Assembly: GCA_015178975.1 (NCBI GenBank)
Contig: WHVD01000259.1
Span: forward strand, 1 to 64,000
DNA from: Hysterangium stoloniferum
Taxonomy: Eukaryota; Basidiomycota; Agaricomycetes; Hysterangiales; Hysterangiaceae
DNA length: 64,000 bases
Direction: 5' to 3'
Under the pieces are notes generated by a model. It saw only the letters and a list, made by a program, of their open reading frames with translations. It did no database searches and was not told the DNA's origin. Below, piece by piece: positions 1 to 36,453 of this stretch (within the stretch, counting starts at the first letter, position 1; every line of letters begins with the position of its first letter). Position numbers and translations under genes: made by a program.

Positions 1-3000
1 GGGTGAGAAAGTTTTGTGGTTGAAAAGTAAACTAAATTTTTGTGGTCTGTAATAACATCTACCGGGTGGGCCGAGCCCTCCAAATAATGTCGCCATGTCT
101 TGAAAGCTTCAAAGATTGCGAGTAATTCCTTATCGTGAACGTCGTAGTTGAGTTCGGGCGCCGAAAATGTGCGAGACAGAAAAGCTACTGGGTGTACTTC
201 ACCATCGGTGTCCAGAATGGACAATATCGCGGCAAGCGCATAGTCCGAAGCATCAGTTTCCACGATGAGTTGAACGTCGGGTTTCCAGTGCGACAAAAAG
301 GGGCGGATGTAAACGCACTTTTCAATTCCTGGAATGCCGATCGGCATTCTTCGGAGAAATTCCACGGGGTGTCTTTGCGAGTAAGACGAGTGAGCGGAAC
401 GGTAATTTTTGAGTAATTGTGAATGAAACGGCGATAAAAATTGGCGAAGCCTAAAAAGGATTGAATATCTTTAACCTTTCGGGGTTCCGGCCAATCTTGA
501 ATGACTTGAATTTTAGCGTCGTCCATGCGGAGACCATCAGGTCCCATCATGAAGCCTAAGTATTCAACCGTGTCGACATCAAAAGAACATTTTTTACCAT
601 TCGCAAAAGACCATGTTTTCGGAGTCTTCGGAGGACTTCACGGACGTGTTCATCATGAAGTGTAGGGTCTTCGGAGAAGATGAGGATGTCGTCTAGGTAC
701 ACAATGACAAAGACGTCAAGGAGGTCGGAAAAGACGTCGTTGATAAAACGTTGAAAGACCGACGGAGCGTTGGTGAGGCCGAAAGGCATCACTAACCATT
801 CAAAGGAACCATAGCGAGTGCGAAAAGCTGTTTTCCATTCGTCACCTTCGGCGATCCGAACCAAATGATAGGCGTGTTTGAGATCTATCTTTGTATAAAT
901 TCGGGCCTTCCGAGGGGCGTCGAGTAAATCGGAGATTAATGGTAATGGGTACTTGTCTTTTCGAGTAATCGCGTTTAGTCCTCGAAAGTCAACGCAAAGT
1001 CGAAGGGAACCGTCTTTTTTCCGAACGAATAGGACAGGGGCTCCATAGGGAGACTTTGAGGGTCGGATAAAACCTATAGCCAAATGTTCATCCAAGAAAT
1101 CTCGGATAGCCGATAATTCGGACTGCGAGAGAGGATAAACTGGGCCTAGGGGCGGATGTGAACCATCTTCAATATCAATTTTCAAATCGTAAGGCCTGTG
1201 AGGGGCGAGTCGATCGGCTTTTTGTTTACTGAAGACATCTGCGAATTCATGGTATTTTTTAGGAACACCTTCTAAATCTGCGATCGGTTCGGTCACCGGG
1301 GATGCGAAGCGACCGGTGACTTCGTCAACTTTAAGATTGACTGTAAATGCTCGGGAGCCGTCCAGCTTGATGGCTCTCATAAAAGCTGCGGCGTTTATTA
1401 GAGAGACGGGCGGCGGAGAGCTCAGATTTGCCACGGGGGCCGGAGGTGCTGTAGAGGCCATATTTGCTGAAACAGGCGGAAAGGGACCAGTCGTATCGGG
1501 TGCCGACGGGGTTCGGAAATGGATACTGCCCAATACCCAATCAATCAACGGATTATAGCGGGTGAGCCAGTTATGTCCTAGAACCACGGAGCAGCTCGAG
1601 TCCAACTGTGTTACAAAAAACGTAACTGTCTGAAAGGTTCCACACGGGAACCGAAGTCGGAGTTCGCAGGCTTGCGAGATTACGGAGTTTGAGGTACCAT
1701 CAAAAAGTCGGAGCGGAATCGGATCTATTGCATAGGTTTTCAACTGATTTTTTCTGGAAAAACTTGTATCTATAAAACAATGGGTTGAACCTGAATCTAT
1801 GAGAGCTCGAAAAGTGAAACTCCCGAGAGGTTCCGAAGTAAGATTTATGAACAAAGAATTAGGATCATACAATGCGGATGCGTTAAGATGACAATTTTCC
1901 GGTGTGCGAGGAGATTCAACGCAACTCTCCAACCGCACGGAATCCAGAGAGTTGCTTAATCTTTTTTCGACTCGGCAGCCGGCTTGGCCGGTTGTGAGGT
2001 CGTGGCCGTGTTGGCCGATCGGGCTTTTGTGGCTTTTGGGCATGCAGCGACTCGGTGTCCGGGATCTGCACACAACAAACAAAGGTTGTTGTCCATTCGG
2101 CGTTGCTTTTCCTGTGGTAGGAGCTTGCCATCGGAGCCGAGTTTGCCAGTTAGGTCGGGTTTGTCTTTGTCTTGAGACTTATTCGACTGTTTGCCCTTGC
2201 CTTTTTTGTCGTTAGACCCTTTGTTTTCGGACTTCTTATCGGAAGTCGAGTTGCCAGTTATATTGGTGTTTTGGTTACCAGACTTGTTGGCATTTTTGTT
2301 GTCCGATGATTTTTTGTCCGACGGGTTTTCGCGACTGATTTCCGAACGTCGTTCCCAGTATCGAGCGTCTGCGTTTTGGGCTTTCAGGCGCATGAGAGGG
2401 AGGGTTTTCGGCTTGCCGGTCTCTCCTTTGGAGACTTCGTCTTTGAGGCGAGACGGAAGGCCGGAGTAAAACTGGTAACGGAGGGCCGAATCGCCCCAGT
2501 CGCAACGCGCGGCGAGGTTGTTGAACTGGACGATATAATCGGTGATGCGCTGAGTGTCTTTCATTTTGAGATTAGAAAGCGCGGTTTCGGCATCGCCGGT
2601 TTGGTCGTAGGGGCCGAAGTTGGTTTCGAGTTCCTCGACAAAGGCATCCCAATCGTGGAGCCAATCGGGGTCTTCAGAGGTGAGGCCAGAAAATGCGGGT
2701 TCAAACCAGGCTGCTGCGGAATCCTTAAGGTATGAGAGTGCGAAGTTTACCTTTCGGTCATCCGTTGCGAATGCAGCCGGGCGGTCCCGAAAGTTGAATC
2801 GACATTGCATAAGGAATGTCGGCAATTTCTTCGGGTTTGAGCCAGTAAATGGCTCGGGTTTGTTGACTCGGGTTTGCCCAGGTTCCTTTTCCTTGATATT
2901 GCTTTTAAGGAATTCATTAAGGGATCCTAGTGTACCTGAAAACAATTCCCATGTTTCTTCAGGGTCGAGAGCCGGTTTCTTCTTTGCAGACTTCTTGGAG

Positions 3001-4013
3001 CCACTAGCCTGAGGTTGGTCGCCATCCTCGGGTTCGTGTTCCGAAACTGGTTGATTGTTAATCTCCTCAGTTGCTTCGGGATCGGTTGCTTCAGTTACTT
3101 CTTCAGCATCGCCGGTAATCTCCACAAAGCGAGATTCTTCGGAGGTTTCTGGTAGCGGAGTTTTCTGAGTAGCTCGGGCTGTATACAGAAAAGGAGACTT
3201 GAGAGTGGAAGATTCTGCTTCGCCGCTAGGCTTGGCATTTTTCCTCGGAGGCATGTTTAGACGGAAAATGCGAGTGTGAAATCAGAATATACTGTTAAGA
3301 ACTAGAAACTGACTAATGTCGGTGGCCGACAGGGACCGATCGGAAGGACTTGGCTTCAGCTTATGGGCTGCGCCCTCGCAAATATCCGCAGGATGTCCTT
3401 AAATTTCGGGCGGGCGAAGACTAGTCCTAGTGAGTACCTTTCGGCGTGATACCGATCGGAATCGAAGGACAAGTCAAGCGTCGGGCCAAGGGGTCGGGGC
3501 CGGGAGTGGCAAGCGCACGCGAAGGCGGATGGGGGAAGTCTTAGTATGAGACTGATACAGGTGTATGAGGGTATTCTGAGTCGATATTCTGATTGTCCAG
3601 TAACTACAATTACAGCGGGTTCATATACAAGTAACAGGCGTCTGGAAAATACTAATGGGGAGAAGGGCAGAACACGGTATTAACAATAAGCTTGACTAGG
3701 AACGGGAAGTTTATGATTAGTTCGGAGGCCGATGATAACCGAGAGCGGAATTACGATAAAAGGAAATGGTTCGAGGACTACAAATATAGATAGACATATG
3801 CGAAACATAAGATTGAACGGATCAACATAATAAAGGGGACGTATCAAAAGTTTGACCAGACAATACGAGTTATTTGACGTGGGCGTAAATGGAGTTTGAT
3901 CTTCGCGAAACATTCGTCAGCTTCGGGGCCGATGGCTTTCCGAGGGGACGACTTGAAACGTTGACAAATGGCGATAACCTCGGGGCCGATAGGGTTGCGA
4001 CACGGTCGTAACA
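1..4013 (-). mobile_element. Ty3/gypsy LTR retrotransposon, family A, 5' part
   Basis: The element runs leftwards off the window edge. Its parts in transcription order are an LTR (3293-4013), gag (start codon at 3254, about 432 residues, ending in a CCHC zinc knuckle of the form CLLCADPGHRVAAC near its end), and pol, which overlaps the end of gag in another frame as is usual for gypsy elements. Pol shows a retropepsin-like ALIDSGSTHCF motif, reverse transcriptase with FGLTNAP and YLDD, and the connection/RNase H start (SFLGFANFYRRF). Integrase and the 3' LTR lie outside. It looks mostly whole in the visible part, with at least one break. CpG is well preserved, so it looks younger than the copies at 54-64 kb. 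Confidence 0.93.
3293..4013 (-). repeat. 5' LTR of gypsy family A
   Basis: This 721-bp repeat starts TGTTACGACC and ends CTTAACA when read on the minus strand, and abuts the gag leader. A solo copy of the same LTR lies in the opposite orientation at 52619-53341, which fixes both ends. The outer flank is CTTAA; its partner duplication would be off the left edge. Confidence 0.93.
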
Positions 4014-34575: not shown

Positions 34576-36453
34576 TCAATATGGATAACGGTCCTTCCGG
34601 TCCTCTGCATCCAGAATGCCAGCTGCAACCTGTTCTTGATGCAATTTATCCAACCACGGGAGCATCGTCTCCGCATATAGGTCTTTAACTCTAGATTCGG
34701 CAATAGGCTCTGGCCAACTCTATAAGAATATTCAATGAGACCCCACAAACAATACAACCAGGATGTCAGGACTTACCCGTATCGCCGCAGCAAGCCTTCC
34801 TGGTATCCCTGGTTCATGTACCATTTCCGTAACAGGGTGGAAATAGGTTCTTATCGTAAAACATATACAGCCTGTCTTTGGCATACGGCGAAGGCTTTGA
34901 CGTTCGCTTCTAAAATAGACTTGAGACATACTAGAAACTTGAGCATCAATAACGAGCTGCCAAGTCTCAATAGCGAAGACACACTCTGTGATCGGGACTG
35001 GAGGCTGCCATTTCCCTTTGGCAAGTGATTCGGGACGTGGCATGTGGGATGCCTGATCGAATTCATCCTCATTGCCGTGATGAACTGATGCCCACGCGAG
35101 GTCGGGGTCAATCTGGCGTAATGTGGATGGCCATAGAATACTGTATCAATAGATTATCGCCATACCTGGAAGAAATACTAACGAATAATTTGATCACCCA
35201 TATCAAGACTGTGTTTGTATAAATGACGCACATTGTTCCGAAGGACCGGCTTATCAACAGGTAGTTTCAGGAAGAACCTGCATTTATATGCGCATTAATT
35301 ACTTCTACAGGAAACGATGTACCGACCTATCCAGTGAGAGCTGTAGCTTCTCTTTATATTGGTACACGCCACCTCTCAGATGGATCTCTTTGAGAGGCAG
35401 TCCTAGTTTGTCTTCCAGTCGCCAAAAACCTGCAATCACACTACATAAGGACTAACTCATGAAAAAAAAAGCAGTTCTCACCTGGAATGCAAATAGCCCC
35501 CGCTCGAAGGTAGTATTGACCGTCGGAGCCTTCTACCATAATGGCAAGGTCTTCAGCCAACAATCCAGCGACTAACATGGGGTCGTCGATGTCTAAATCC
35601 CATTTATCGCCAGTAGGAAGAATTTCAACAGTCTTCACTCTTGCGCCATCGCTTCCAACAATACTATCTCCTGCTCCGAGTCCTCCTTTATCCACAACAC
35701 GGGTTACTTTGAAAACCTGTGGATATCGCGCGGCAACTTTCTCCACCGTCAGAAGAAAAATGGCACTAGCCGCCTGATTAAATACATACGGTACGATGCA
35801 AGCTCTGTGCAGACTTCTAGGGCCGCCTTTTCAGCACCAGGAAGAGTGCATACCGCCTTTGAGCCTCTGTAGACACATTGATTGAATATGCAGATCAGTG
35901 AAACACACGAGTTTATTATTTTTACCGTTCGTATGCCCTCTTCTTCCGAATCTCGAAGGTTTCAAGATAACTGGTTACGGAAAATTTACCATACAACCGC
36001 GTTAACCGACGGTAACTTGAAGTGCCCTTACGTGTTATCCAACTCAACCCACGAGTCCCACGACATTGCACGTATTCCCATAGTCACTGAGTACTTAGGA
36101 CCCCATCTTTGAAGAGTTTGCACGGGAATTGAGGCATCGGCGCGCATACACACACAAAGTTGCTCACCGAAAGGGACGGTACGGCACAGGTTTAGTAGTC
36201 TGTAGGTCGAAATCTGTCAAAGGCTGAAACTCAGGATAGCGAAAGTCCACTGGCGTCCATTCTGCACCAATTGTCCGTCAGCAAATACTATAGTTTTCAA
36301 AGACCTGTCAACATAGCCACCTCCGAACGGTCGTATCGGACATTTCTTCTTTGGGAACAAGAGGATAATGCGTCGGGCGCAGTACCATATAATCAACGCC
36401 GTCAACACAGCCTCAGTAGCGAATTGAATATTAAGAGAGAGACCGAGAGACAT
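34576..36453 (-). CDS. DUF3445 family (haem-dependent oxidative N-demethylase-like) with membrane anchor
   Basis: Eleven exons (36453-36321, 36261-36168, 36106-36032, 35970-35926, 35866-35790, 35736-35482, 35429-35327, 35277-35232, 35177-35166, 35112-34777, 34719-34576), 439 residues. The N-terminus has one hydrophobic span (about residues 10-33) followed by RRIILLFPKKK. The DUF3445 body shows YSVTMGIRAMSWDSWVELDN, LAARYPQVF, GFWRLEDKLGLPLKEIH, YKEKLQLSLDRFF, LRNNYFFQIDPDLAWASVHH, and SERQSLRRMPKTGCICFTIR. Bacterial relatives form the haem subunit of an oxidative amine demethylase; the fungal substrate is unknown. Exon 9 is a 12-nt microexon encoding YFFQ; without it the conserved RNNYFFQ motif is lost. 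The intron before exon 6 has a weak acceptor (GAAAG). Confidence 0.87.

Follow-up and report, generated by a model that had tools for sequence, protein, structure and literature searches.

The DNA analysed here (the window) is a stretch of 64,000 nt from Hysterangium stoloniferum, lying on contig C178 of a 111-Mb assembly of 554 contigs. Its minus strand carries a gene resembling HODM_asu (PF11927), in which one predicted exon is only 12 nt long. The gene was modelled by hand, the start codon and first exon being the least certain parts of the model, and the features relevant to the short exon are as follows.

34576..36453, minus strand: gene model of 12 exons and 421 aa, HODM_asu-like (PF11927), built against a paralog on contig C13 and supported by the Pfam match
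35232..35277, minus strand: exon 8, 46 nt, ending ...VLRNN in phase 0; a 46-nt exon is also present in the paralog model
35178..35231, minus strand: intron 8, 54 nt, GTGCGT..CGTTAG, with weak donor and acceptor; in-frame stop if retained
35166..35177, minus strand: microexon (exon 9), TATTTCTTCCAG, encoding YFFQ; counterpart 12-nt exon in the paralog
35113..35165, minus strand: intron 9, 53 nt, GTATGG..CGCCAG; stop three codons in if retained
34985..35112, minus strand: exon 10, 128 nt, starting IDPDLAW, placed from the sequence and the gene model

With the microexon included, the predicted protein matches PF11927.14 at 258.4 bits (residues 86-390, profile positions 1-269 of 273), which exceeds the 25-bit gathering cut-off of Pfam and extends over most of the profile; without the microexon the score falls to 240.8 bits, a cost of 17.6 bits. 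The match bears out the assignment made in the first-pass annotation, where the product was called a DUF3445 protein, a name that we take to denote the PF11927 family. No family was matched in a search of NCBIfam. Among proteins in the PDB, the only convincing relative was the alpha subunit of HODM, a heme-dependent oxidative N-demethylase (5lte, 5lth and 5lti; E 4.9e-16).

Read along the minus strand, with slashes at the junctions, the sequence runs AAT/GTGCGT...CGTTAG/TATTTCTTCCAG/GTATGG...CGCCAG/ATTGAC, placing the 12-nt exon at 35177-35166 with a GT-AG intron of 54 nt before it and one of 53 nt after it, in agreement with the first-pass annotation in coordinates, sequence and lengths. Being internal, 12 nt long and bounded by canonical GT-AG introns on both sides, it falls within the definition of a microexon (3-30 nt). 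When the donor at 35231 and the acceptor at 35113 were held fixed and all internal exons of the form AG...GT or AG...GC with both introns of at least 35 nt were enumerated, it was the single one that keeps the frame and is free of stops. It had been described as the only frame-keeping reading, which holds for internal exons; plain skipping, in which exon 8 is joined directly to exon 10 across one 119-nt intron, is likewise in frame, as the annotation had itself remarked. Several other readings were rejected. A single intron from donor 35231 to any acceptor up to 35113 gave nothing in frame except full skipping, and an early stop resulted in each case from retention of intron 8, from retention of intron 9, and from use of the AG at the end of the microexon with intron 9 retained. 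Dinucleotide shuffling of the 119-nt stretch, searched for internal exons of no more than 45 nt with GT donors and introns no shorter than 45 nt, produced one that was in frame and free of stops in 19% of cases and such an exon of 12 nt in 3.2%; the window sequence alone is therefore no proof of a microexon.

The fungal comparison was made among paralogs of this one genome, in which two further PF11927 loci were found, a nearer one on contig C13 and a distant one on contig C534. The nearer paralog (L009, C13:374933-376738) was modelled manually, one exon at a time, and 255 of 411 aligned residues (62%) are identical to the window gene. Nine of the 11 introns of the window gene occur in it at exactly aligned positions and in equal phase; intron 1 also agrees in phase, but its position adjoins an alignment gap. 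The C13 gene can be read as RNN-YSFQ-LGPDLAW by way of a 12-nt exon, TATTCATTTCAG (C13:376132-376143), which is flanked by introns of 55 and 51 nt, in the same place and phase as in the window and likewise after a 46-nt exon. The two microexons are identical at nine of 12 nt, differing by one synonymous change (TTC/TTT) and by one codon changed twice (Phe/Ser). Frame alone is not decisive in the paralog: six internal exons keep frame there if introns may be as short as 35 nt, and two if the minimum is 45 nt and donors must be GT; the YSFQ exon was chosen because it resembles the window exon and fits the family. This choice is allowed for in a shuffle test in which the best-matching 12-nt candidates of each shuffled intron pair are scored: both members contained a 12-nt exon in 0.2% of 20,000 trials, and peptides as similar as YFFQ and YSFQ in 0 of 20,000. 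The two genes differ at most synonymous sites (pS 0.89, saturated; pN 0.26), and their flanking introns show little or no likeness, with 12 of 300 shuffles scoring as high as the upstream pair (a weak likeness) and 86 of 300 as high as the downstream pair (not significantly alike). The shared exon is thus not merely undiverged DNA, and it would be older than the duplication that produced the C178 and C13 genes. At the C534 locus, a distant relative read from one open frame, that frame crosses the place without an intron (FERTSWEIVDDRNL) and aligns at the same length (RTSWEIVDDRNL), with WEIV at the four positions.

Beyond this genome, the fungal segment RNNYFFQIDPDL aligns without a gap over RLNWTLTINPRL of 5lte, where WTLT occupies the position of YFFQ. 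Two samples of bacterial relatives were then compared at these columns. The first comprised 80 loci, mostly from Pseudomonas, kept from 120 relatives found with a bacterial HODM fragment, and had no gap at the four columns and Trp at the first position in 80 of 80. The second, which was more varied, was drawn from 200 genomes of one phylum, 32 of which gave 41 matches; 30 loci (L091-L120), one per genome, were aligned, leaving out nine second copies and the two weakest matches. No gap was seen in 29 of these 30, and Trp came first in 25. A one-residue gap in L117 was the sole exception among the 110 loci, which represent 107 distinct sequences (L094 repeats L087 and L088), and the four residues were missing as a block from none of the 110 and from neither of the two other paralogs. 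Searches with another query or in other collections gave no relatives: the fungal protein itself yielded 34 pattern matches and 0 relatives in bacteria, a viral contig set examined for misfiled fungal contigs yielded 3 pattern matches and 0 relatives, and plasmids yielded no match. The description of YFFQ as conserved proved too strong, and the expectation of an aromatic YF-Q motif in relatives was borne out in part. The YF-Q letters were not found in the bacterial set and vary even within the genome (YSFQ and WEIV); with Trp mostly at the first position and the columns ungapped, what the family keeps is mostly Arg-x-Asn followed by an aromatic residue, plus the length.

The paralog's matching exon and the ungapped family alignment make inclusion the normal reading. 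The 12-nt microexon is accordingly taken, with a probability of roughly 0.9, to be a real, ordinary and normally included coding exon of an HODM_asu-like gene. The 21 modelled introns of the window gene and the C13 paralog measure 48-73 nt, a range in which 54 and 53 nt are typical and 119 nt is an outlier. Two short introns of typical size would each be removed by intron definition, and splicing would join RNN-YFFQ-IDPDL and so restore an ungapped family domain. Splicing in the cell and constitutive inclusion are both probable under this model.

The alternative that survives best concerns the 3' end of the microexon, where the pyrimidine-rich TTCTTCCAG precedes GTATGG and might itself serve intron 8 as its 3' splice site; intron 9 would then be removed directly from exon 8, and the microexon would be lost in two steps. 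Splice sites were scored with a model trained on the 17 other introns of the two genes, whose own sites are self-scored and hence flattered. The acceptor before the microexon scores 2.8 in the window and 3.2 in the paralog (17 training acceptors, 1.9-10.2), and is outscored in both genes by the AG that ends the microexon (6.9 and 6.0). Two donors score lower than any of the 17 in the training set (3.9-10.7): that of intron 8 in the window, at 3.5, and the one following the paralog's microexon, at 3.2. Scanning from the branch point favours the first AG. The window has two YTNAY branch-point candidates, and downstream of one of them (TTGAT, 25 nt before the intron ends) the TTAG acceptor is the first AG met, so that scanning would prefer it to the AG 12 nt farther on; in the paralog, no YTNAY candidate makes the used AG the first. 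A TTY-CAG string follows simply from Phe-Gln codons and the CAG/GT exon-end consensus. The stronger AG may hence be a competing acceptor, and may equally be a by-product of these codons and that consensus. In favour of the two-step route, the first step would remove an intron of 66 or 67 nt, inside the usual size, and skipping through alternative acceptors is described for fungal stwintrons in a portion of PMC6616335. Against it, apart from the scanning order and the codon explanation, stand a score based on 17 training introns and a product that would lack four positions found throughout the family sample. It is accordingly judged unlikely that in both paralogs the microexon also provides the polypyrimidine tract and AG for a rival acceptor, such that selection of one of two acceptors separated by 12 nt, with another round of splicing after it, would form a conserved recursive-type switch.

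Still harder to sustain is a regulated cassette, in which controlled inclusion and skipping would give two proteins of different activity, somewhat as for Xlr2 in Trichoderma. Both isoforms would be in frame and the splice sites of intron 8 are weak, and passages from several sources provide precedents: a microexon switch in a filamentous fungus (PMC11121469), exon skipping in the basidiomycetes Cryptococcus (PMC3990503) and Ustilago (PMC2219887), and a suggestion that microexons in Phanerochaete P450 genes promote alternative splicing (PMC1184071). However, skipping in one step needs the 119-nt intron, beyond the 48-73 nt of the 21 modelled introns, and the four residues are absent from none of the bacterial loci and from neither other paralog. 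Fungi are moreover thought, according to an excerpt of PMC2219887, to use intron definition, whose failure leads to retention rather than skipping; among 193 events in Ustilago, the same excerpt gives 12 of exon skipping against 114 of retention. The proposal that inclusion or skipping could switch activity is thus unsupported, requiring either the outlying intron or the two-step route to make a protein of a form seen in no relative sampled. That the exon is spurious, with the true transcript joining RNN to IDPDL and the 12 nt belonging to an intron, would keep the frame but is scarcely credible beside the paralog's matching exon, the shuffle test and the ungapped family alignment.

What the four residues contribute was assessed in two ways. 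In a scan of four-residue deletions against a bacteria-only HMM, loss of YFFQ cost 9.7 bits, the 113th largest of 303 (median 7.4); YFFQ does not rank with the most damaging deletions, so the case for skipping as a complete loss of function is weakened, and the sequence argument for essentiality is moderate. A structure was predicted for the bacterial relative L011, together with 20 other sequences. Confidence in the L011 model is modest (mean pLDDT 65.8; 73 in block 221-230); its best PDB matches are 5lth and 5lte (TM 0.75, rmsd 9.5), and it places W227-T230, which match YFFQ, inside a strand spanning 222-231. As predicted on this relative, the microexon would supply four residues of a ten-residue beta-strand, which a four-residue deletion would shorten, so that some harm to the fold on loss is plausible.

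Tiny coding exons of this kind have been recorded in basidiomycetes. The available text of PMC1184071 describes microexons coding 2-10 aa in the P450 genes of Phanerochaete chrysosporium (the shortest 6 bp), with frequent introns of 45-55 bp, and that of PMC2897884, on the annotation of Laccaria bicolor, reports that basidiomycete genes frequently have small exons coding <10 aa. The present case would resemble these in its tiny exon, small introns and enzyme gene, while belonging to another gene family. In the filamentous fungus Trichoderma virens, Xlr2 also has a short exon that contributes to a conserved domain. According to PMC11121469, that microexon measures 20 nt, which is not divisible by three, and RNA-seq showed its inclusion to depend on glucose, whereas the exon here is 12 nt and frame-neutral. 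The same paper puts the number of fungal genes with predicted microexons at only three, which is at odds with the basidiomycete papers. RS-exons and fungal stwintrons, as presented in extracts of PMC6224609 and PMC6616335, are similar in that competing or sequential sites beside a short exon can cause skipping. Unlike in those systems, the included junction here (AAT/TATTTC) regenerates no donor, and no nested intron was seen. A literature search by family and enzyme name turned up nothing on isoforms of fungal DUF3445 genes in the text consulted, where the single mention of DUF3445, in PMC10406608, is a figure-legend abbreviation.

HODM itself is a sequence relative that aligns without a gap over the microexon; it differs in being bacterial and in having WTLT for YFFQ, and the fungal protein adds an N-terminal hydrophobic stretch, judged by eye. 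Heme binding and oxidative N-demethylation are known for bacterial HODM from the titles of the PDB entries. The value of the present case lies mainly in annotation. As a passage of PMC4084796 notes, predicting small exons is difficult when RNA-seq is lacking, and a microexon of this kind may escape automatic annotation, with four residues lost inside a conserved domain; the paralog pair illustrates how microexons can gain support without RNA. Wider interest would follow only if the two-step acceptor choice were true.

Several further features of the window deserve mention. Intron 3 (36031-35971, minus strand) has no counterpart in the C13 paralog, whose exon 3 spans the place, pointing to intron gain or loss after the duplication. 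The predicted N-terminus (36453-36321, minus strand) contains the hydrophobic stretch VLTALIIWYCARRIILLF, which suggests a membrane anchor; the N-terminus of the paralog is also hydrophobic by eye. Intron 10 (34984-34931, minus strand) is 54 nt long, a multiple of three and stop-free, and its retention would give a 439-residue protein. As a putative source of isoforms it would be no weaker a candidate than the microexon, although a 67-nt intron at the same place in the paralog makes splicing of intron 10 likely. Away from the gene, two long overlapping ORFs at 556-3254 (minus strand) resemble the gag and pol of an LTR retroelement, and the YLDDILIF motif within them is presumably of retroelement type.
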